NCBI GenBank assembly: GCA_016202435.1
Contig: JACQOR010000081.1
Coordinates: 1-53,545, forward strand
DNA length: 53,545 nt
Origin: Chloroflexota bacterium
Lineage (GTDB): Bacteria > Chloroflexota > UBA6077 > SHYK01
Direction: 5' to 3'
The position numbers and the translations under genes are program-made. The notes below the pieces were generated by a model. The model searched no databases and had not been told where the DNA came from. It saw only the letters and a list, made by a program, of their open reading frames with translations. Below are positions 15,173-43,726 of this stretch, in pieces. Numbering within the stretch: the first letter of the stretch is position 1; the number at the start of each line of letters is the position of its first letter.

Positions 15173-16612
15173 GTGGCTAGACATCGCGGGATCCCGGAGG
15201 CCTTTGTATGCTGGCTGTGGCAGGAGCGGAGAGCCGGTCGGACACTGATCACTTCTGATGGGCGCCGCCTGGATGTGATCTATCCGGGGCGGCGGTGGGG
15301 CAGCTGGGGTCCGGACTTCCGAGAGGCGATCTTGGCTGTGGATGGTGCGGTGGTTCGGGGTGACGTCGAGGTTCACGTGCGCGCCGCCGACTGGCGGGCC
15401 CACGGTCACTCATCAGATCCTGAGTACGCCGGAATCCGGTTGCACGTGATCTTTGAGCGCTCCGCCTCGGGTCCGGATCAGGCCACACTGATGACGGTCT
15501 ACCTGGGCGCCCACCTCCTGGAATCGATCGACGCGCTTCTGCAAGCGTGGCGTGAAGCCTCCTTGCGGACCAACAGTGAGTCTTGCCGTTCACCCGAGGA
15601 AGCTGCGGACCTGCTTGAGCGAGCCGGGTTGGCCCGGCTCAATTCGAAGGCGGCCCGCTTCGAAGGCGACCTGGTGACCGTAGGGCCCCGGGAGGCGCTG
15701 CTTCGCGGGGCAAGTGAGTGTCTAGGGTATGCGGCAAACGTGCCTCCGATCAGGGCACTGCTGGAACGCTTCTCGGTGCGAATGGTGGCAGACCTGCTGC
15801 GAGTCGAGGGCGCTCTTGTGGCGAGCGCCGCGCTCTTCGGCACCGCGGGTCTACTGCCTTCGCAGCGAGGCAGGCTTCCTCCGGACGGCTACTCCTTGCG
15901 TATGGAGCATCTCTGGCGCGAGCTGGCGTGGCCGGGCCCTTCGCGGAGTCTGGGCTGGCGTTGGATTGGAAGTCGGCCGGCCAATATGCCGACACGGCGG
16001 GTCGCCGCACTTCTGGCGCTGCTCCATGAGGGTCGGGGTGCCCCGGAGGAGGAGGTTCTGGCGGCGGTTTGGGAGCTGCCACCTCGCAGGGTGGCGGGCG
16101 CACTCCGTGCGACGTTTCAGCGAAAGGGTGACGAGTACTGGCGTGCCCATGGGGACTTCGGACAACCCCTACAGGTCCGGACTGCACTGGTCGGTTCTCG
16201 GAGGGCGGCCGACATCGTCGTAAACGCGGCCCTGCCGTGGGCCCTGGCGATCGCTCGGGCGCGGGACGACCGGCCTCTTCATGATGCCGTCATCCGTGCG
16301 TATCGTGTCCATCCGCGGCTCGCCGACGACCAGATTACGCGCCATATGGCGTTCCAGGTGCTAGGGAGCGTTTCAAACCCAGTGGTCAATTCGGCGTGCC
16401 GTCAGCAGGGATTGCACCAGTTGTATCGCGGCTGGTGCACCGACCGCGACTGTCAGGACTGTCCTGCTTTCGCTCAAGACGGAGCGACCCGGGTTCCTTC
16501 TCAAAGTCAGGCCAGCGAGGCGTCTCTTAGCAGAGCCGCGAATATGATCGCACCCGGCAACTTCGACAGGCCAGGGGAGCCGAATGGCATGCCGCACTCA
16601 TCGAACAGGTAG
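15173..16612 (+). CDS. DUF2851 family protein
   Basis: GRRLDVIYPGRRWGSWGPDFREAILAVDGAVVRGDVEVHVRAADWRAHGHSSDPEYAGIRLHVIFE...NSACRQQGLHQLYRGWCTDRDCQDCP; start approximate. Confidence 0.85.
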   Translation: MARHRGIPEAFVCWLWQERRAGRTLITSDGRRLDVIYPGRRWGSWGPDFREAILAVDGAVVRGDVEVHVRAADWRAHGHSSDPEYAGIRLHVIFERSASGPDQATLMTVYLGAHLLESIDALLQAWREASLRTNSESCRSPEEAADLLERAGLARLNSKAARFEGDLVTVGPREALLRGASECLGYAANVPPIRALLERFSVRMVADLLRVEGALVASAALFGTAGLLPSQRGRLPPDGYSLRMEHLWRELAWPGPSRSLGWRWIGSRPANMPTRRVAALLALLHEGRGAPEEEVLAAVWELPPRRVAGALRATFQRKGDEYWRAHGDFGQPLQVRTALVGSRRAADIVVNAALPWALAIARARDDRPLHDAVIRAYRVHPRLADDQITRHMAFQVLGSVSNPVVNSACRQQGLHQLYRGWCTDRDCQDCPAFAQDGATRVPSQSQASEASLSRAANMIAPGNFDRPGEPNGMPHSSNR

Positions 16613-16613
16613 A

Positions 16614-16898
16614 ATGGACGAAACTTTCAGGAGGCTCACCACCACGATTCCCGACAACCCCGATTGGCGCCGCCACCGCGGTGCCTGCCCTAACTACCGC
16701 GAGCGCTGGTCCGCGGAAAGCGAGCCTGGCGACGACGGCTGCCGCCTCCTGTATCAAGTGATCTGCCTGATGAACACGCCCCCACTCACCATCGAGGAGC
16801 AGCAGCGCTGTCTCTGCACGACCGGGGGCTGCTGGCGCGGTCCTGAGACCTGCGTCGACTCCTCTCATGCGAGGACTGGATTGGGCGTCCTTTCCTAG
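16614..16898 (+). CDS. Small cysteine-rich hypothetical protein
   Basis: 94 aa with eight Cys (ACPNYRER...GCRLLYQVICLMNTPPLTIEEQQRCLCTTGGCWRGPETC), immediately after the DUF2851 gene. Confidence 0.65.
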   Translation: MDETFRRLTTTIPDNPDWRRHRGACPNYRERWSAESEPGDDGCRLLYQVICLMNTPPLTIEEQQRCLCTTGGCWRGPETCVDSSHARTGLGVLS

Positions 16899-16931
16899 CC
16901 CGTGGCGCGGGTGGCTTCTGGGAGAGACGCG

Positions 16932-18461
16932 CTAGGATACCGCCTGCGCAAGCACTCGGGGAATCTGCGGCAGCAAGTCTGACGCGGCCAGCCCACCTGC
17001 ACCGAAGTCCGCAGAAATGTTGGCGGCCGCGGCCCCGTGCGCCCAGACCCCAAGGCGGGCCGCGGCGCTCGGCGTCAGTCCCCGCGCCAGCAGGGCACCA
17101 ACGATTCCGGTGAGAACGTCTCCCGTGCCGGCCGTGGCCAGCACGGGGTTCGGACGGGCATGCACCCAGGCGTTCCGGCCACTGCCAATGCCGGTGAACG
17201 GACCTTTCACGACCACCGTCACCCCCCAGGCTCGGGAAAGTCGTCCTGCAAGCTCCCACGCGGGCTCGTCGGGCGCAAGATTCGTACCGACCAGGCGGGC
17301 AAGCTCCCCCAGGTGTGGCGTTAGCACGACTTTTTGACCGATCCAATTCTCCCAGCCTGGACGAGTGGCGAGTGCGTTGAGACCGTCAGCATCCACCACG
17401 ACGGGCAGGCCGGCGACTGCCGCGTGACGCAACACGGCTTCCACCACGTCGCCAGCGCTCCCATCCGTCGAGAGCCCCGGCCCGACCGCCACGGCATCGA
17501 ACCGGTTGAGCTGTGGCGTGAGACGTTCAACGCATTCACGGCCCTGGGCTGCCGGTCCGCCGTCCGGCAGGGGCAAAAAGGTGATCTCGGCCAGGCGACT
17601 GGCCACGACATCCCGCAACCAGGGCGGTGCGGCCAACACAACCAGGCCCGCACCCGCGCGGACGGCAGCGGCGGTGACGAGATACGCCGCGCCTGCGTAT
17701 CGGGCTGACCCGGCCAATACCAGAAGGCGCCCGAGCGTCCCTTTGTGGGCACCGAGGGGCGTTCTTGAGAGCATCCCTGCCAGTGACGTTAAAGTCACCA
17801 CTTCGGCCGCTTCTGAAGGGCCGGGGGCGAGCCCGATATCGGCGAAGGCCAGCTCGCCGGTCCACGAGGAGGCGGCGGCGGACAGTAAGCCCTGCTTGGC
17901 TCCACCCAGGACCACCGTGAGATCGGCGATAACTGCGATCCCCCTTGCTCGGCCCGTGTCCGGGTCGAGGCCGCTTGGGGTATCCACGGCCACCACCTTG
18001 GTGCCGCGTTCGGTACGGCGCTGCTCATTTAGCGCCTGGATGATCCCTCGGAGCGGTTGTCGGGGTTCGCCTCGCGCGCCAAGGCCAAGTAGCCCATCGA
18101 GAATGACGGTCGCGTCGCTGAGCGCATGGTCCAGTTCGGAGGTGCCCTCTGAATGGTCGACTGCCTTTCCCCCTGCGCGGGTGAACTCGTCCTTCTCAGC
18201 GGCCGTAATCGAATGGCCCGGGCATAGATAGAGACCGGCTTGCCACCCAAACTGGCGGAGGCGGCGTGCCGCGATCCAGGCGTCCCGGCCGTTGCGGCCG
18301 GTGCCGACGAGCGCAAGCACGACGGCCGGTGTAGGCCAGCGGGCCGCCACGGCTTCTGCCACCGCGCTGCCCGCTCGATCCTGGAGCTCCTGCTCGCTTG
18401 TGCCCGATGCCAGCGTCTGGCGCTCGAGGTCGCGCATCTCCGCTACCGAGATCACCTTCAT
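16932..18461 (-). CDS. nnr: Bifunctional NAD(P)HX epimerase/dehydratase
   Basis: N-term YjeF-N domain (VVLALVGTGRNGRDAWIAARRL) plus C-term dehydratase (GATVVVKGPFTGIGSGRNAWVHARPNPVLATAGTGDVLTGIVGALLARG). Confidence 0.93.
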   Translation of the reverse strand: MKVISVAEMRDLERQTLASGTSEQELQDRAGSAVAEAVAARWPTPAVVLALVGTGRNGRDAWIAARRLRQFGWQAGLYLCPGHSITAAEKDEFTRAGGKAVDHSEGTSELDHALSDATVILDGLLGLGARGEPRQPLRGIIQALNEQRRTERGTKVVAVDTPSGLDPDTGRARGIAVIADLTVVLGGAKQGLLSAAASSWTGELAFADIGLAPGPSEAAEVVTLTSLAGMLSRTPLGAHKGTLGRLLVLAGSARYAGAAYLVTAAAVRAGAGLVVLAAPPWLRDVVASRLAEITFLPLPDGGPAAQGRECVERLTPQLNRFDAVAVGPGLSTDGSAGDVVEAVLRHAAVAGLPVVVDADGLNALATRPGWENWIGQKVVLTPHLGELARLVGTNLAPDEPAWELAGRLSRAWGVTVVVKGPFTGIGSGRNAWVHARPNPVLATAGTGDVLTGIVGALLARGLTPSAAARLGVWAHGAAAANISADFGAGGLAASDLLPQIPRVLAQAVS

Positions 18462-18832
18462 CGCGAAGGCGCGCTCGGCGGTGTTTCGGCGATGGCGACG
18501 GCGATCGCGTTTTCGCGCGAGTGAGAGATACTGACCTCAATCTCGGTTACGCCCAGCCGCTCGGCACGGCGTAGCATCCGGCCAGACAAACGCACCTCCG
18601 GCTTTCCCGAGGGCAGGCGCACCACCTCGATGCTCCTGAACGCCATGCCGCCCACGCCAAGCGCTTTCATGACGGCCTCTTTTGCGGCGAATCGCCCGGC
18701 GAGAGACGCCACCCGCCCCTGATTCTGTTGCCACTCCAGGTCGGTATACACGCGTCGCCGGAGACCGGCCGGGTGGCGCGCGAGGACGCGCGCCAGCCGC
18801 GAGATTTCCACGATGTCGATTCCCAAGCCCAC
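18458..18832 (-). CDS. acpS: Holo-[acyl-carrier-protein] synthase
   Basis: GLGIDIVEISRLARVLARHP...RFAAKEAVMKALG...VSISHSRENAIAVAI; 4-nt overlap with nnr; GTG start chosen at VGLGIDI. Confidence 0.93.
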   Translation of the reverse strand: MGLGIDIVEISRLARVLARHPAGLRRRVYTDLEWQQNQGRVASLAGRFAAKEAVMKALGVGGMAFRSIEVVRLPSGKPEVRLSGRMLRRAERLGVTEIEVSISHSRENAIAVAIAETPPSAPSR

Positions 18833-33413: not shown

Positions 33414-34436
33414 TTACAGGCCGTGGACGGCGCGAGCCGCTGCAATAACCTCGGTTACCCCGACAGGCTCGCTTCCGCCCATGGCCGGCCCAAGCGCGTC
33501 TCTGGGCACTGGCTGACCTGCCAGCAGTGCCGCGGCTGACGAAACGCCGGTTCTGAGCACATTCAGGTCGTATCCGCCCTCAAGCAAGAGAATGGCTCGG
33601 CCGTCGCACAGTTCGTCGGCGGCCGCGAGGAACTGTTCCAAGATTTGGCTATATCCGCGCACGGAGAGCCTCATGCCAGCCAGAGGATCGGCCCAATGTG
33701 CATCGAAGCCGAGCGACACCAGCAGACATCCGGGCCTGAATCTCCGTAGCGCCGGAACGAGCACTTGCTCAGTGACCGCAAGGTAGCTGTCATCGCCACA
33801 ACCAGCCATCAGCGGAAGATTTACGGTAGCTCCGATCCCTCCGTCTTCTCCCGTCTCCGAGATTCCACCCGTGCCTGGGTAATACGGGTATTGATGGACC
33901 GAGCAGTACAGTACGTTGGCACGGTCGTAGAAGATTTCCTGGGTGCCATTCCCATGGTGTACATCTATGTCCACGATCGCCGCGCGAGCGATGCTCAGTT
34001 CAGTTAGGGCCCATTCTGCGGCCAATGCGATGTTGTTGAAGAGGCAGAAGCCCATAGAGCGCTCTCGTGTGGCGTGATGACCGGGTGGCCGGACCAGCAC
34101 AAGGCCATTGGGGTGGACGCCCCGCACGACGTCCGAAACGGCTTGGACCGTCGCTCCCACAGCGTAGGCGGCGGCCTCGTAGGAGGCCCCCGTGACAAAG
34201 GTATCCAGGTCGATCCAGCCGCCGCCAGCCCTGGCCAAATTCTCCACCTGGCTGACGTGCTGGCGCGAGTGTGTCAGCTCCATGGTGCGAGTGTCAGCTG
34301 GCCTCACCTCAGGCCAAGACAGGTCAAGGCCGGCGTCGCGAACGGCTTCGACCGCCGCGACGAGGCGCTCGGGACGCTCTGGATGCCCCGGACTGGAATG
34401 CTCCAGGCAGTGGGGGTCAGTGTAGATGGCGGTCAT
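33414..34436 (-). CDS. Histone deacetylase/AcuC family protein
   Basis: HPERPERLVAAVEAV...LVRPPGHHATRERSMGFCLFNNIALAA...IVDIDVHHGNGTQEIFY...GFDAHWADPLAGM; start at MTAIYTDPHC. Confidence 0.92.
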   Translation of the reverse strand: MTAIYTDPHCLEHSSPGHPERPERLVAAVEAVRDAGLDLSWPEVRPADTRTMELTHSRQHVSQVENLARAGGGWIDLDTFVTGASYEAAAYAVGATVQAVSDVVRGVHPNGLVLVRPPGHHATRERSMGFCLFNNIALAAEWALTELSIARAAIVDIDVHHGNGTQEIFYDRANVLYCSVHQYPYYPGTGGISETGEDGGIGATVNLPLMAGCGDDSYLAVTEQVLVPALRRFRPGCLLVSLGFDAHWADPLAGMRLSVRGYSQILEQFLAAADELCDGRAILLLEGGYDLNVLRTGVSSAAALLAGQPVPRDALGPAMGGSEPVGVTEVIAAARAVHGL

Positions 34437-34536
34437 GCCCAGCCGGCTCGGTCGCCGGTGAGGGGCCGGCCCCGGAGCGCGAAGAGGCTTCGCTAGCGGA
34501 GCGACCCAGCGAACGCCATGGTCCCCGGCCCAGATC

Positions 34537-36489
34537 TCAAGGCGTCGTTGCGCCCGGGGCCAACCGGGGGCGGGAGCGGCCTCGCGGGGCTGGAGCCAGC
34601 TGTTCCCCAGGCTGCTCGGTAGGCAGGGGAGGTGCCTGGGTCGGCGGGCCTTCGCTTTCAAGCGGCTGCCCCTGGAAAACTTTCTCCAGGTCTGCGCCTT
34701 CCAACGTTTCCCGCTTGATCAGCTCGGCGGCCATAAGGTCAAGCACGTCACGGCGATCCGTCAACATCGACAGTGCCCGGTCATGCGCGTTTGCGATAAG
34801 CCTGCGAATCTCCTCGTCAATGGCCTCGGCGATTTTCTCACTGTAGTTCTTCTGCTCGGAGATCTCCCGGCCCAGGAAGATCAATTCTTCCTTGCGGCCG
34901 AAAGTCCGGGGACCCAGAACGTCGCTCATGCCGTACTCGCAGACCATCTTCCGCGCGAGGTTCGTGGCGACTTCCAGGTCGTTCTGAGCACCGGTGCTCA
35001 TCTCGCCAAACACCAGTTTTTCGGCGCAATGTCCCCCGAGACTGGCGGCCAACCGGTCCTCAAACTGGGACCTAGTCCACATGTGCCGGTCCTCTTCGGG
35101 GAGGAATCGCGTGTAGCCTCCCATCATGCCGTGGGCGACGATGGAGATCTTGTGGACCGGATCGTGCTGCTCCAGGAAACGGCCCACGATCGCGTGACCC
35201 GCCTCGTGATAGGCCGTTCGCCGTTTCTCCAACTCCGAGATGACCCGGCTCCTCCGCTCGGGCCCGGCAACGACTCGGTCGATGGCTTCCTCCATCTCGC
35301 TCATGCCGACAGTGCGGCGGTTACGTCGCGCAGCAAGAATTGCGGCTTCGTTCAGAAGGTTGGCTAGATCCGCGCCGGAAAAGCCCGGCGTCTGCTTGGC
35401 CAGCACGTCGAGATCCACGGAGGTATCTATGGGCTTGCCTTTCGCATGCACATCGAGCACCGCTCGGCGGCCCGCTACGTCAGGAGGCGGAAGGACCACC
35501 TGACGGTCGAACCGGCCCGGGCGCAGCAGCGCATGGTCCAGCACGTCCGGTCGGTTTGTAGCAGCCAGAACGATAACGCTCGTACCCTGATCAAACCCAT
35601 CCATCTCGACCAGAATCTGGTTCAGGGTCTGTTCACGCTCGTCGTGGCTGCCGCCCAGACCTGCGCCTCGCTGGCGTCCCACGGCATCAATCTCGTCGAT
35701 GAAAACGATGCAGGGAGCGTTTCGCTTGGCCTGCTCGAACAAGTCGCGCACCCTCGACGCTCCCACGCCCACGAACATTTCCACGAACTCCGAACCGCTG
35801 ATCGAGAAGAACGGCACACCGGCCTCTCCCGCCACCGCTCGGGAGAGCATCGTTTTGCCCGTCCCGGGCGGACCCACGAGCAAGACCCCCTTCGGGATAC
35901 GGGCTCCAAGGGCCACGAATTTGTCCGGGAATTTCAGAAACTCGACTACCTCTTGGAGTTCCTGCTTGGCCTCTTCCACCCCGGCTACGTCCGCGAATGT
36001 CACGGTTGACTTGTTCGCTATGAACATGCGAGCGCGGCTCTTGCCGAACGACATGGCCTGGTTATTGGAACCCTGCGCCTGCCGCAACATGAACAGCAGG
36101 ATCGCACCGAAGAACACCAAGGGAAGCAAGTTGAAGAGAATACCCATCCAGTTGCCAAACTGCGAGGGCTCGGCGACCACAATCGTGACCGCCTCAAGCT
36201 GCTCGGGTGTCACCCCGTAGTCCCGCAGTTGCTGAGAGATAGGACCACCGGGTTCTTTGCGCGAGACCGCTCGGCGCTTGTCAGAATACTCGAGGTTCAG
36301 ACGGTCATCGGACCCGACTGAGATGCGGCTGACGCTTCCTTCACGGACGTCCTTCGCCAGCCCGCTGAAGCCGATGGTAGCGACCTCTTTGTCGCCGGCC
36401 GGAGGAAATGCCGTGAAGAAAAGGGCGGCAATCGCCGCGAGGATAACAAGGTAGGCGAAGCTATTTCGGAGCCATCTATTGGTGGTCAT
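34537..36489 (-). CDS. ftsH: ATP-dependent zinc metalloprotease FtsH
   Basis: [53 protein letters not shown]...[15 protein letters not shown]. Confidence 0.97.
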
Positions 36490-36663: not shown

Positions 36664-37107
36664 TCAATCCGAGTCGAAGAAAAGTCGGAGCCACGCCTTC
36701 CAGTTAGCTCGCGTGACTGGCGCAGCTCTGGTCCTGGGCTCTGCTGGTGGAATCATCGACCCTTCGGGCCAGATGAGTATGACGGGACGGTCCCCCGGCT
36801 TCACGAGGCCGAGCTCGTTTCGCCCGACCCGCTCAATCTCCGAGTCACGGAGAGCATCGTTCAACTCAGCCTGGACTGCGAGGTTGTTTCGCCGAAGGGT
36901 TTCGATCTCGTTCGCGGCGGCAACAACTTGTTGGCGGGCCCGATACCCATCAAGGGCCCGCTGCCCACTCAGCACTGCCAGGTAGACGGCGGTGATACCT
37001 GCGAGAATCGCGATCAGTCGACGTCGGATGAGCACCGAGTGTGTCACCCGACGTCGCGCTAGTAGCCCGCGTGCCGAGTGCAAGGTTTGCATCACGAGTT
37101 CGTCCAA
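36664..37107 (-). CDS. Septum formation initiator (FtsB/DivIC-like)
   Basis: Single TM (LIAILAGITAVYLAVLSG) followed by coiled coil NEIETLRRNNLAVQAELNDALRDSEIERVGRNELGLVKPGDRPV. Confidence 0.8.
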   Translation of the reverse strand: MDELVMQTLHSARGLLARRRVTHSVLIRRRLIAILAGITAVYLAVLSGQRALDGYRARQQVVAAANEIETLRRNNLAVQAELNDALRDSEIERVGRNELGLVKPGDRPVILIWPEGSMIPPAEPRTRAAPVTRANWKAWLRLFFDSD

Positions 37108-38087
37108 GAAAGGCCGGAAATCGGATCGACTCCGAATTGAACGGTCACGGCGCTGGGTTTTCTTGACGACACGAGCTCAGGGCCAGCTAGAACGATGTCG
37201 ACGCTATAGATCTCGAAGGCTCCGTTTCCCATGCCGATGAAAGCTACGGCGTTGCCGAGCGGTGACCAGACCGGACTCCGCGCTATCTCCGGCTCGGCAA
37301 CCGGCACCGGCCGGTCGGGATTCTTGATGTCAGCGATCCAGACCACATTCTTGCCGGCCTCCCGAGTGACGTAGGCAAGGTATTCGCCGTCGGGCGACCA
37401 TGCCGGGTCGTAGGCGCCTCGTTCGGCGTTCGTAAGCGCCCGCGCGCCAGTGGGGCGAGACACGTCGATGAGGTATATCTGGCTCTGGCCGCCGAGGAAC
37501 CGGGTCGCCGCGATGAAACGGCCATCGGGTGACCACGCAAAAGAATCGATGGCGTCGAGACCGTGAGCGGCAAACGTAATCTGCCGCGATCCGGTGCCGT
37601 CCACGTTCATGCGCCACAGCATCGGATAGAACGACGCCCGGTCAGTGATAAAGGCGATGCTCTGACCGTCGGGAGACCAATGAGGTTGGAAAGCCCAATC
37701 GCTACTGTCCAGAGGATTTCGGCGGTTTCTCGTGATCTGCCGCGGCTCGGTGCCGTCTGCACCCATCACAAATAGCTCCGAGTACCCCTGGTACATCCCC
37801 ACCGCGACGATTCTCGCTCCGTCGCCGGAGGTGTCGGGCTGCAACCAGCCGCCTTCACGCGTAACCGGCTCGACGCGTCCGTTGGACAGTGACCAGATGT
37901 CCCCGGCGCGTGCGAAAGTTATTCGCCCTGGCAGAGCAGCGCCAACCGTTGCCCTCGAGGCCTCAGGCGGCTCAAGGGCAACAGCGAGTTTCATACTTGC
38001 AACGAGAGCGCCGCCGACGGCGCAGGCCAACAGAACGCCCAGTTGCGCCTTCCGGAAGAATTGCCAACCGATGGTCATCATCTGCAC
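37092..38087 (-). CDS. TolB-like/PD40 beta-propeller protein
   Basis: WSPDGQSIAFITDR, WSPDGRFIAATRF, WSPDGEYLAYVTRE, WSPLGNAVAFIGM repeats after a signal anchor. Confidence 0.88.
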   Translation of the reverse strand: MQMMTIGWQFFRKAQLGVLLACAVGGALVASMKLAVALEPPEASRATVGAALPGRITFARAGDIWSLSNGRVEPVTREGGWLQPDTSGDGARIVAVGMYQGYSELFVMGADGTEPRQITRNRRNPLDSSDWAFQPHWSPDGQSIAFITDRASFYPMLWRMNVDGTGSRQITFAAHGLDAIDSFAWSPDGRFIAATRFLGGQSQIYLIDVSRPTGARALTNAERGAYDPAWSPDGEYLAYVTREAGKNVVWIADIKNPDRPVPVAEPEIARSPVWSPLGNAVAFIGMGNGAFEIYSVDIVLAGPELVSSRKPSAVTVQFGVDPISGLSWTNS

Positions 38088-38098
38088 TCTCGGGCCAA

Positions 38099-39189
38099 CT
38101 AGGCCATTGCGTCTGGCGAGGCAGCCTGATGGGAGCGGCTCACCGCGCTCGCCAGGGAAGTGTATCCGCGAGCGACCATCATTCCGGGCAGCTCGTCCGC
38201 GATCGTCATGGCGGTGCGCGGTTCCACAAAGGTCGTGGTACCCACTTCGACCGCCGTCGCGCCGGCCAGAATGAATTCGAGAGCGTCTTCCGTGGAGCTG
38301 ATCCCGCCCATCCCGATGACCGGAACGGTGACTGCCTTGCTAGCTTGGTAGACGAGCCAAACCGCGATGGGGTGAATGGCGGGTCCCGAAAGGCCTCCCC
38401 ATCCCCCTCCGAGGACAGGCCTTCCGGTCCACGTGTCGATCTTCATGCCCCTTAATGCATCCACCAGCACAATCGCGTCCGCCCCCGCCAACTCGGCCGC
38501 GCGAGCGAGGCTGTGGACATCCGAGGTCTGGGGTGGAAGTTCGGCCAGGAGCGGCAATCCTGTCCGGGTGCGCGCCGCGCTCACTATAGCCTCCACTCTT
38601 GCCGTTCTTACCATCTCTGGGTATTCATGCTCCAAAGGCTCGGCCGAGGCGAGGTTGATTTCCAAACCTCGCAGCCCAGGCAACTCGTCCAGCTCGCCCG
38701 CAGGTAGGCGAAATCGTCCACGGTACTCCACTTGCGGCGGGAGTAAGCGGGATGGGAGCAGCCAGGCAGCCGTATGCGCCTCGACGGCGAATGTCACGCT
38801 TCTGCCCCGTGCCAGCGCGAGTTCCGCGAGGCCGATAACTGGTAACGTGTTGAACCCCCCGCCGACCAGCAACAGGTGCCGGGCGCCGCGGTCAACGTGA
38901 AACCGCGGCCTTGCGGACCCAGGCAGTCCAGAATGTCTGTCGGCTGGCGGTCGGCAATCCAGTTGGACGCCGGCCCAGCCCGCCAAACGGCAAGGTCCAT
39001 CTCTTCACCGTCAACCCGACACACGCTCATTGGGCGCCGCAGGAGCGGATCGTTCGAGGTCCCACACCCAATGTGTACAAACTGCCCTGCCCTGACCTGC
39101 CGGGCAAGGGGCCCGACATGAAGTGTGAGCAAGTGAGTGGACGGCGTGATGGCGCTATTTGCACTGACCGTGCCCAGAAAACGGGTCAA
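38099..39189 (-). pseudogene. PyrK-like FAD/NAD module joined to the C-terminal half of PyrD; one frameshift near 38895-38900 separates ORFs 38794..39189 and 38099..38986
   Basis: Upstream ORF: VRAGQFVHIGCGTSNDPLLRRPMSVCRVDG...DILDCLGPQGRGF; downstream frame: HVDRGARHLLLVGGGFNTLPVIGLAELAL...LRGLEINLASAEP...AGADAIVLVDALRGMKIDTWTGRPVLGGGWGGLSGPAIHPIAVWLV...GMGGISSTEDALEFILAGATAVEVGT. ATGA overlap with carB. Confidence 0.75.
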
Positions 39190-42100
39190 GCCCGAACGTG
39201 CTCCCTGCCGGTTACCGATTCCGGATCGAAGGACCAGTAGCTCGTAACCGGCAGAACCTCAAATGAACCGTCACCCGAAGCGATGCATTCGGCCACCACC
39301 CTCGCGGTGTCCAAGGAAGTAAAACACGGAATTCGGCGCTCGGTAGCCGCCCGCCGAATCTCGAATCCGTCACGAAACTGGTCACGCCGCGCAGACGGGC
39401 CAACGATGGTGTTCACCACGCCCTGAACCAGGCCTTCGGTGATGACATCGACCACATTAGGATGGCCTTCATCGAGTTTCTTAGTGCTCATAACGACCGG
39501 AATTCCGAGCGCCTCGATGAGACCAGCTGTACCCTCCGTTGCGTAGAGACGGTACCCGAGGGCAGCGAACGATCGGATGATTGGGATCGCTTCTGGCTTG
39601 TCTGCATCGTCGATCGAGAAGAGCAGCGCTCCGTTCCGCGGCAGCATGAGCCCAGCGGCAATGAGGGCCTTCATCATCGCCGGTCGGTAGCTGCGATCGA
39701 TGCCCATGACTTCTCCGGTCGACTTCATCTCCGGGCCGAGGTAGGAGTCCACGCGAGGTAGCTTAGACATGGAGAAAACCGGAGCCTTGACGGCTACCAG
39801 ATCCTGAATGGGCCACAGGCCATCCAGGTATCCTTGCTGCGCGAGGGACTCTCCGAGCATTATCCGGGTTGCCACGCTGACCAGAGGCACACCGGTGACC
39901 TTGCTGATGAAAGGCACCGTCCGGCTCGCTCGCGGGTTGACCTCGATAACGTAGAGGTTTTCCTCAAAGAGCACGTACTGCACGTTGAAGATGCCGCGGA
40001 GGCCCAGACCGAGGCCGAGCTTCCTCGTGTAGTCGACCACTGTATCTGCTTCCGCCGGGGAGATCGCGAGGGCGGGATAGACTGCCATGGAGTCCCCTGA
40101 GTGGACACCGGCTCGTTCAATATGGCCCATGATCCCCGGAATCAGCACTCGAGCGCCGTCGCAGACAGCGTCGATTTCGATCTCTCTGCCGGCGAGGTAT
40201 TTATCGATGAGCACGGGATGGACCGAAGATAGCTCGGTTGCCGCGGCCACATACCGAATCAAGTCCGCCGGGCCGTGGACGATCTCCATGGCGCGCCCGC
40301 CAAGCACGTAGGACGGGCGGACCAGCACGGGGTAGCCGATCCGCTCAGCTGTGCGGAGCGCATCTTCGACGTTCCGTACACCGGCGCCTGGAGGCTGGGG
40401 GAGTCCGAGGCTAGTAAGCAACCGCTCGAACTGGCGTCGGTCTTCCGCGAGATCGATTGCCTGCACCGCGCTGCCGAGTATCTTGGCACCGGACCTGTGC
40501 AGGGCCTCTGCGAGATTGATTGCCGTTTGTCCGCCGAATTGCACGATTACCGGGGGCGCAGAGGTGAGAGGCGACTCGCCTGCCTCATTTTCGAGGATGT
40601 CGCGCACACTCTCTTCGTCCAGCGGCTCGAAGTACAGACGGCTTGAGGAGTCGAAGTCCGTGCTGACCGTTTCGGGGTTGCTGTTGACCATGATGCTTTG
40701 AACGTCTGCGTCTTTGAGCGCCAGAGCTGACCGCACGCTGCAGTAGTCGAACTCAATGCCCTGACCAATCCGAATGGGGCCGGATCCGATGACCAGCGTT
40801 CCCCGTCCGCCTAGTGGCTCGGCCTCGTTCTCAGTTTCGTAGGTGCTGTAGAAGTACGGCGTGCCCGCAGCGAACTCTGCGGCGCACGTGTCGACCATGC
40901 TATAGGTAGGGCGAATCTTCCAATCCGCCCGCAACGTCCGGACCTGCTCCGGAAGCTTGTCCGATAACGTCCCGATCTGAACGTCGGAAAAGCCCATCCG
41001 TTTCGCCTGGTAGAGCAGCTTGGGAGTGAGGGGCTGCCGTAGGAGGTCCCGCTCGGTCGCCACGATGCTCTCGATCTTTGCCAGGAAGAACGGGTCAATC
41101 CCCGAAATCTCGGCAATCCGGTCCCGGCTGACACCGCGTCGGAGCGCGGCTGAGATGGCCCACAGTCGCTGGTCATTGGGCTCTTCGATGAGCGGGAGGA
41201 TGATCTCCAGCGGATCGTACTCCGACGTGCTCCACGCGCGATCTTCCCATTGGAGCGATCGGCCGCCAATCTCCAGCGAGCGCACCGCCTTCTGGAGCGC
41301 GGCCTCAAAGGATCGCTCGATCGCCATCACCTCTCCGGTGGATTTCATCTGAGTATTGATCGTGCGCTCGCCGCTGGCGAACTTATCGAAGGGCCACCGG
41401 GGGATCTTGACGACCACGTAGTCGAGCGCCGGCTCGAAGGCGGCCGTGGTGCGCTCGGTTACCGAGTTCGGGATTTCGTGCAACCTCCGCCCAATCGCAA
41501 TCTTGGCGGCGACACGCGCGATTGGATAGCCCGTGGCTTTGGACGCCAATGCAGACGACCGGCTCACCCGGGGATTGACCTCAATTACGTGGTAGTGGTG
41601 TGAGCGGGGATCGAGCGCGAACTGAATGTTGCAGCCGCCTTCCACTCCGAGCGCACGGATAATCTTGATCGCTGCGGAGCGGAGCATCTGGTACTCGAAA
41701 TCCGAGAGCGTCTGACTGGGCGCCACGACTATTGAGTCTCCGGTGTGGACGCCCATAGGGTCGAAGTTCTCCATGTTGCAGATCGTGATGCAGTTGTCCG
41801 CTCCGTCCCGCAACACCTCGTACTCGATCTCTTTCCAGCCCGTGAGAGATTTCTCGATGAGCACCTGGCCGATGGGGCTGAGCGTGATGCCGGCACCCAC
41901 TACCGCGCGCAGCTCCGACCCGCTCCTTCCAAAACCGCCCCCTGTGCCCCCCAGTGTGAAGGCCGGACGAACCACCACCGGGTAGCCAATCACATCGGCG
42001 ATCCGGAGAGCTTCGTCGATACTGCGCGCAATTGCACTCTCCGGCACTGGCTCGCCGATGCTGAGAAGCAGATTCTTGAAGAGTTCTCGATCCTCGGCCT

Positions 42101-42467
42101 GGCGCAGGGTGGTGAGCGGAGTTCCAAGAAGCCTCACATCGTGGCGTTCCAGCACGCCTGCTTCGGCCAGGTCGACAGCCAGATTCAGTCCGGTCTGTCC
42201 ACCGAGCGTTGGCAACAGCCCGTCCGGTTGCTCCCGGACGATGATCCGCTCGATAACGTCTACGGTAAGCGGCTCAACGTAGACCGCGTCAGCGATGTCC
42301 GCATCAGTCATGATCGTTGCCGGATTGGAGTTCACCAGGACGGTGTAGACGCCTTCTTCGCGCAACGCCTTGCAGGCCTGAGTACCCGCGTAGTCGAATT
42401 CGGCGGCTTGCCCGATTACGATGGGGCCAGAACCAATGACGAGGACTTTCCGGGGACTCTCCCTCAT
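39186..42467 (-). CDS. carB: Carbamoyl-phosphate synthase large subunit
   Basis: [33 protein letters not shown]...[27 protein letters not shown] overlap with carA. Confidence 0.97.
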
Positions 42468-43726
42468 CGAGCCTGAGTCTTCGCGGGCAGAAATCCGCTT
42501 TTCTCCGGGGCCCGCTCCAGGGCACCCCAACCCGGAATGGGCCTCTCAACCAGATCGAGAAATCGCTCAAAAATGTACTGGTTGTCCTGGGGCCCCGGAC
42601 ACCCCTCAGGGTGGTATTGCACCGAGAACGCGGGAAGCTCCCGGTGGGCGAGGCCCTCGACGGAACCGTCGTTCAAGTTCAGCATGGAGACTCGAAATCC
42701 AGAACGTTCGGAGATCGACGCGGCGTCAACCTGGAATTCGTGGTTCTGTGAAGTGATGTGGATGCGATCGGTGGCCAGGTCTCGCACCGGATGGTTTCCC
42801 CCGTGGTGGCCAAACTTCAGGCGGCTGGTCGTGCCGCCGGCGGCCAATCCGAGAATCTGGTGGCCGAGGCAGATCCCGAGAAAAGGAATTCCGCGCGCGA
42901 GCACGCCTCGCGCCATCAGGGCTGCTTGTTGCATGCGCGCCGGATCACCAGGTCCATTCGAGACTACCACGCCTTCAGCTCCGGTTTCTCGAATCTGCGC
43001 TTCCGTGGCGGTCCACGGCAGTACGATGGGCTCGGCGCCGCGGGCCGCGAGCGAACGCACGATGTTGTGCTTGATGCCACAGTCCACCACGGCGATGCGC
43101 CTGGCGGCCCGCATTACCGCGTGCGCTGTCGTCCGCTCGGTCCGGAGCGCCGTCCCCGCCGGGTCAGAGACCCCGGCGACCAAATTCTGGCTGGACAGCA
43201 ACGGCGTCGTTCGCGCCAGTTCGATCAGACGGTGCACCCCGTCTTCGAGCGATACGGCAGAGCGAAGTGCGCCCAGGGCCGCGCGCATCGTGCCCCGTTC
43301 CCGCAGATGCCGGGTAAGCGCTCGGGTGTCAACGCCCTCCAACCCGGGGATTCCGGCGGCTGCGAGGAACTCGCCGAGGCTCTCCGTCATCAGCCAATGA
43401 TTCGGAACCGGGGCCACTTCTCGAACGATCAGAGCTGTCAGCCAAGGCCGCGCCGACTCAGTCGCCTCACGTTGAACTCCATAATTGCCCACTTGTGGAT
43501 AGGTGAGGACGACCATCTGGCCGCGATAAGAAGGGTCAGTTGCGATCTCCTGGTAGCCCGCCATGCTCGTGTTGAAGACAATCTCGCCGCGAGCCACGGA
43601 GTCCGAATGGGACGACTCCAGGGGTGCGCCGAACGATTTGCCGAAGAACACTCTTCCGTCCTCGAGAGCGAGCATCGCGTCGGCTGCAGCCAGCTCGGCG
43701 AAATGGAACCCGGCTTGGTGGTTCAC
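42464..43726 (-). CDS. carA: Carbamoyl-phosphate synthase small subunit
   Basis: [14 protein letters not shown]...[34 protein letters not shown]...[16 protein letters not shown]. Confidence 0.96.

Follow-up and report, generated by a model that had tools for sequence, protein, structure and literature searches.

Does the end of the pyr operon in a draft Chloroflexota genome encode a compact PyrK-PyrD enzyme, or does it hold what is left of two separate genes? The window, i.e. the whole stretch of DNA that was analysed (53,545 nucleotides), belongs to a metagenome-assembled draft that is 77% complete in 105 contigs and is the only genome of its genus in our comparison. We refer to this genome as G000 and to four other genomes of the same GTDB family as G001-G004. 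A preliminary description had located a PyrK-like part running into a C-terminal part of a class-1B PyrD at 38099-39189 and had offered two readings, a decaying remnant or a novel minimal fused enzyme or regulator. The coordinates proved right, on the minus strand, where the gene order is pyrR, pyrB, pyrC, carA, carB, the remnant, a PD40 beta-propeller gene, an ftsB-like gene and ftsH. As judged from its sequence, the locus is very likely a pseudogene, namely the remains of pyrK and class-1B pyrD after a class-2 PyrD took over.

An apparent fused reading frame and three lesions

In the remnant, pyrK keeps its first two-thirds and runs into a class-1B pyrD of which the last two-thirds are left. 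Its pyrK start is a TTG at 39189 that overlaps the carB stop as TTGA, rather than the ATGA first described. The features of the locus are as follows.

39186..42530 (-), carB, intact control neighbour, 81.6% identical to G004 over 1112 aa in one frame
38099-39189, minus strand, pyrK-pyrD remnant, directly after carB at the end of the pyr operon
38884..39189 (-), pyrK remnant, N-terminal part with the FAD domain, read from the TTG start; NF000799, E 1e-15; aligned with the PyrK proteins of G001-G004
38875..38889 (-), lesion 1, loss of a single pyrK base (GRGFTL / RHLLLVGGG), 50 nt where four relatives have 51 nt
38723..38881 (-), pyrK remnant, opening portion of the NAD domain (RHLLLVGGG...LLPPQVEY), read in a shifted frame; aligned with the relatives' PyrK
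38721..38724 (-), lesion 2, deletion junction joining PyrK ...VEY out of frame to PyrD TVDDFAYL, placed by the distances between flanking codons in relatives
38701..38724 (-), pyrD remnant, eight codons TVDDFAYL in a frame unlike both neighbours, matching TVDEFASM/TAEDFAYL of relatives
38692..38706 (-), lesion 3, loss of a single base directly past TVDDFAYL, as judged against G003 and G004 DNA; reading resumes in the frame used by the pyrK NAD part upstream
38099..38701 (-), class-1B pyrD remnant, residues ~113 to the end plus stop, open; NF005574, E 3e-54; used in the invariant-column analysis
37092..38087 (-), PD40/TolB-like beta-propeller gene, intact, downstream; PF07676, E 1e-21; place conserved in relatives by synteny

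Elsewhere in this region, a histone-deacetylase/AcuC-like gene, identified by sequence and synteny, lies between secA and ftsH (33414-34661, minus strand) and is also present in relatives. In G001, pyrC and secA (L045:3891-5134 and 16035-18628) are each split into two overlapping frames, probably by sequencing errors of that draft.

The family assignment given in the preliminary description held up. The 102 residues read from the TTG align with the PyrK FAD domain and account for the NF000799 match, while the C-terminal part matches PF01180 at positions 147-291 only (E 2e-28) and scores 183.9 bits against the class-1B family NF005574, below its cut-off of 269. PyrD residues 1 to about 110 are deleted, leaving an incomplete barrel without Lys48 and Asn72, and no single frame holds the FAD domain, the NAD domain and the four-Cys [2Fe-2S] segment of a PyrK.

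Where a single frameshift had been proposed, comparison with the intact orthologues at the same locus revealed three frame-disrupting lesions within 200 bp. Translation from the pyrK TTG goes out of frame at lesion 1 and ends after 131 aa. At lesion 2, 657 (G002), 673 (G004) or 695 (G003) bases that separate the flanking codons in relatives are missing, a deletion that removes the end of pyrK with its [2Fe-2S] Cys segment and the start of pyrD, both of which had already been noted as absent; the two sides of the junction share 3 bp, ACC. The RGRFRLP originally reported at this junction results from reading TVDDFAYL out of frame. Lesions 2 and 3 together restore a frame of 301 open codons that continues through the pyrD remnant down to a TAG at 38099, and yet the PyrK start and the fused parts never share one frame. 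From the alignments, the apparent fused open reading frame is the sum of three lesions, and the surviving frame can probably give nothing longer than a 131-aa PyrK fragment, which would have no part in pyrimidine synthesis.

That lesions 2 and 3 offset each other in frame counts against a pseudogene, and the 301-codon frame that results would be the basis of any compact working PyrK-PyrD fusion. We nevertheless find a working fusion scarcely credible, since translation from the pyrK start begins in a different frame (lesion 1), the deletion has taken the Fe-S segment, half of the NAD domain, K48 and N72, another sequence stands in place of the catalytic loop and the junction occurs in no relative. 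The same junction, which the preliminary description had proposed to look for in related genomes, was absent from the 40 nearest relatives, from 400 genomes of the phylum and from a GTDB-wide scan with the window protein, and a scan with a two-sequence profile (44 loci) returned only the sister described below and ordinary PyrDs. Our literature search found no report of such a case. Of the two original readings, the decaying remnant is supported, and the minimal fused enzyme or regulator is not, for want of a shared frame and of active-site residues.

Intact orthologues in relatives and a class-2 PyrD

G001, G002, G003 and G004 each carry separate, full-length pyrK and pyrD at the same place in a conserved gene order. 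G004 (Chloroflexi bacterium isolate Baikal-deep-G117) is the sister of the window genome, with support of 100 in a CarB plus CarA tree and identities of about 82% for CarB and about 88% for FtsH. Relatives of this kind, in combination with an assembly deletion or collapse here, would have spoken against the preliminary description; the relatives exist, but the collapse is very unlikely. For the locus to be an artefact, an intact pyrK and pyrD would have to have been collapsed by ~660 bp with the loss of two further bases, and although the metagenomic origin and fragmentation of the draft leave room for error, three errors would be needed within 200 bp of one gene pair whose flanks share only 3 bp. 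Moreover, of the genes compared with G004 across ~36 kb (16.9-53.3 kb of the window), some 25 can each be aligned in one frame and only pyrK and pyrD are broken, which makes base-calling errors an unlikely cause, and active-site residues outside the lesions have been replaced as well.

The second dihydroorotate dehydrogenase that the preliminary description expected elsewhere in the case of a decaying remnant was found. A complete class-2 (quinone) pyrD lies directly downstream of malQ on another contig of the window genome (C86:5098-6207); its product carries the motif NVSSPNT, scores 403.6 bits against NF003652 (cut-off 267) and also exceeds the TIGR01036 cut-off. The sister likewise carries a class-2 pyrD immediately downstream of malQ; its product, too, has NVSSPNT and exceeds the class-2 cut-offs. 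We considered contamination as the source of the class-2 gene and rejected it because the sister has the same malQ neighbour and a copy 58% identical. In contrast, G001-G003 each have one PyrD above the family cut-off, a class-1B protein with NISCPN, and no class-2 gene. That G000 and G004 share a malQ-linked class-2 gene and G001-G003 have none is what suggests a pseudogene left by class-2 displacement. The class-2 gene may either have been gained by the common ancestor of G000 and G004, or be older and have been lost in G001-G003.

A completed replacement also exists within the order, since G010 has a class-2 gene and no match to PyrK or class-1B PyrD. Two further genomes carry other PyrD-like genes. 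G009 combines a class-2 PyrD with a divergent PyrK/PyrD pair at L121:7166-9278 (C371) that has no carB beside it in the 12 kb read; we considered this pair as a dead copy and rejected it because its NISCPN is intact and it does not adjoin carB, and it possibly belongs to a different pathway. G008 has no match to PyrK and seven PyrD-like proteins (L095, L118 and other places) with 31-37% identity to class 2.

Active-site residues and evolutionary rates

We next compared the surviving PyrD sequences with 58 class-1B PyrDs, in which 49 columns are invariant at >=95% (34 of them comparable in G000); these references were picked for having SCPN, so that the loop columns are invariant by construction and their contribution is inflated. 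Residue numbers follow L. lactis and were fixed by comparing NADGLQN in 5KSW with NAIGLQN in 5UE9 (an I74D-type difference) and by Lys48. A paper in the reference list of PMC8097209 states in its title that flavin reduction requires Lys48. The class-1B loop N-x-S-C-P-N, with Cys as base, reads NLASAEP in the window, as first described, and NLPGRYA in the sister. A frameshift as the source of the loop change was rejected, as the other frames show no SCPN. Asn72, Asn132, Cys135, Asn193 and Thr194 have roles in the class-1B active site.

In the window genome, 8 of the 34 near-invariant columns are changed (S134, C135, P136, N137, the conserved Lys of VKLSP, N193, T194 and one Gly), seven of them at the active site, while 25 of 26 near-invariant scaffold residues are kept. 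The sister has changed 8 of 49 columns: K48, N72, S134, C135, P136, N137, T194 and one Ala. The control genomes G001, G002, G003 and G006 have 0 or 1 such column changed. Fisher tests gave p about 1e-5 for each of the two genomes, or 1.0e-3 and 7.7e-4 when the loop is counted once; with the SCPN loop columns left out, our own arithmetic gives p about 0.005 for G004 (3/6 versus 1/39) and about 0.004 for G000 (3/4 versus 1/26). Among class-1B loci of relatives that had not been selected for SCPN, all keep the Cys where it is readable, the exceptions being the window and its sister.

Despite having lost K48, N72 and the SCPN loop, the sister PyrD scores above the NF005574 cut-off. Both genes of its pair (L040:10639-12466, contig C5; pyrK of 258 codons and pyrD of 366 codons) are full length and stop-free, and its PyrK keeps all four Fe-S cysteines, although the NAD site is altered (GGG to GRG, CGP to SGP). 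Fold-bearing glycines are retained. In a rough neutral simulation of the excess change, 3-4 stops were expected in the G004 pair, and none arose in about 1-3% of runs. The remnant in the window shows the pattern seen in the sister, and PyrD probably lost catalysis before the gene broke.

Branch lengths on a fixed tree, expressed relative to the mean of G001-G003, were raised for both proteins in both genomes. For the retained part of PyrD, the G000 branch was 3.1-3.5 times and the G004 branch 2.3-2.4 times that mean; for PyrK the values were 2.4-2.5 and 2.1 times. By comparison, the branches of CarB, CarA, FtsH and PD40 were 0.5-1.2 times and those of FtsB 0.8-1.1 times the mean. Since the PyrDs of G000 and G004 differ more from each other (48.5% identity) than from that of G002 (53.9 and 56.5%, respectively), both lineages accelerated after their split.

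On another view, the PyrDK of this clade, once class 2 had taken over, became a flavoprotein that was non-catalytic or re-purposed, with selection on fold and cofactor scaffold, and broke only later in the lineage of the window. We hold this to be less likely than not. The full-length, stop-free G004 genes (simulated probability of no stop about 0.01-0.03), the four retained Fe-S cysteines and the concentration of seven of the eight changed G004 columns in K48, N72, S134, C135, P136, N137 and T194 all argue for it. However, the SCPN-picked references inflate the loop columns, rates are up 2-3 times as in decay, the G004 PyrK has lost conserved NAD-site residues, and no partner or new substrate is known in a case of two genomes only. 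A non-catalytic PyrDK may, with similarly limited likelihood, have been kept as, for example, a structural partner in the pyr operon, with the window genome caught just after breakage. Re-purposing is compatible with the window copy being a pseudogene now, and it refines an earlier stage of the displacement account.

Taken together, the preferred reading of a pseudogene after class-2 displacement would run as follows. A class-2, quinone-dependent PyrD would have taken over dihydroorotate oxidation, upon which selection on PyrDK catalysis would have ceased in the line shared by the window genome and its sister. Residues for orotate binding and catalysis would then have changed in both genomes, with the fold still preserved for some time, and the pair would finally have been broken in the lineage of the window by the deletion and the two 1-bp losses. 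Against this reading speaks the absence of stops over about 360 codons, together with the 25 of 26 scaffold residues kept, so that the break must be recent or the fragment still constrained. Likewise, the retained glycines, the Fe-S cysteines of G004 and the lack of stops suggest that the gene was not free of all constraint; in its earlier stage, seen in two genomes, it may have encoded either an expressed idle protein held to a stable fold or a protein with some other non-catalytic use.

Comparison with known dihydroorotate dehydrogenases

One bacterial family thus appears to display successive stages of a replacement: class 1B only, class 1B with a dead active site beside class 2, and a class-1B remnant beside class 2. 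The order of loss would be active site first and fold later, an order that the intact genes of the sister make directly testable. Where such genomes are annotated with a PyrD or PyrK in the pyr operon, the working enzyme may be another one, and annotation pipelines would likely still call the G004 pair a dihydroorotate dehydrogenase.

The parent system is the class-1B pair of PyrDB and PyrK (Lactococcus lactis, PDB 1EP1-1EP3; also 5KSW/5UE9; families NF005574 and NF000799), which the relatives encode as pyrK-pyrD after carB. Compared with this pair, the remnant lacks ~0.66 kb across the gene boundary, two single bases, the Fe-S segment, the catalytic Cys and the orotate-binding residues. Class-2 PyrD (TIGR01036/NF003652) carries out the same reaction and is present here as an intact copy on another contig; it differs from the remnant in belonging to another class of the superfamily at another locus and in being a single membrane-associated protein that uses quinone instead of PyrK and NAD+. 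The decay of a displaced gene is a process already known, and the locus resembles non-orthologous gene displacement with pseudogene decay in that an intact analogue is present and the old gene was accelerated and then broken. It departs from the usual course in that the active site lost its residues earlier than the scaffold did, and in two lineages; the apparent active-site-first loss in the sister is the less ordinary feature of the case.
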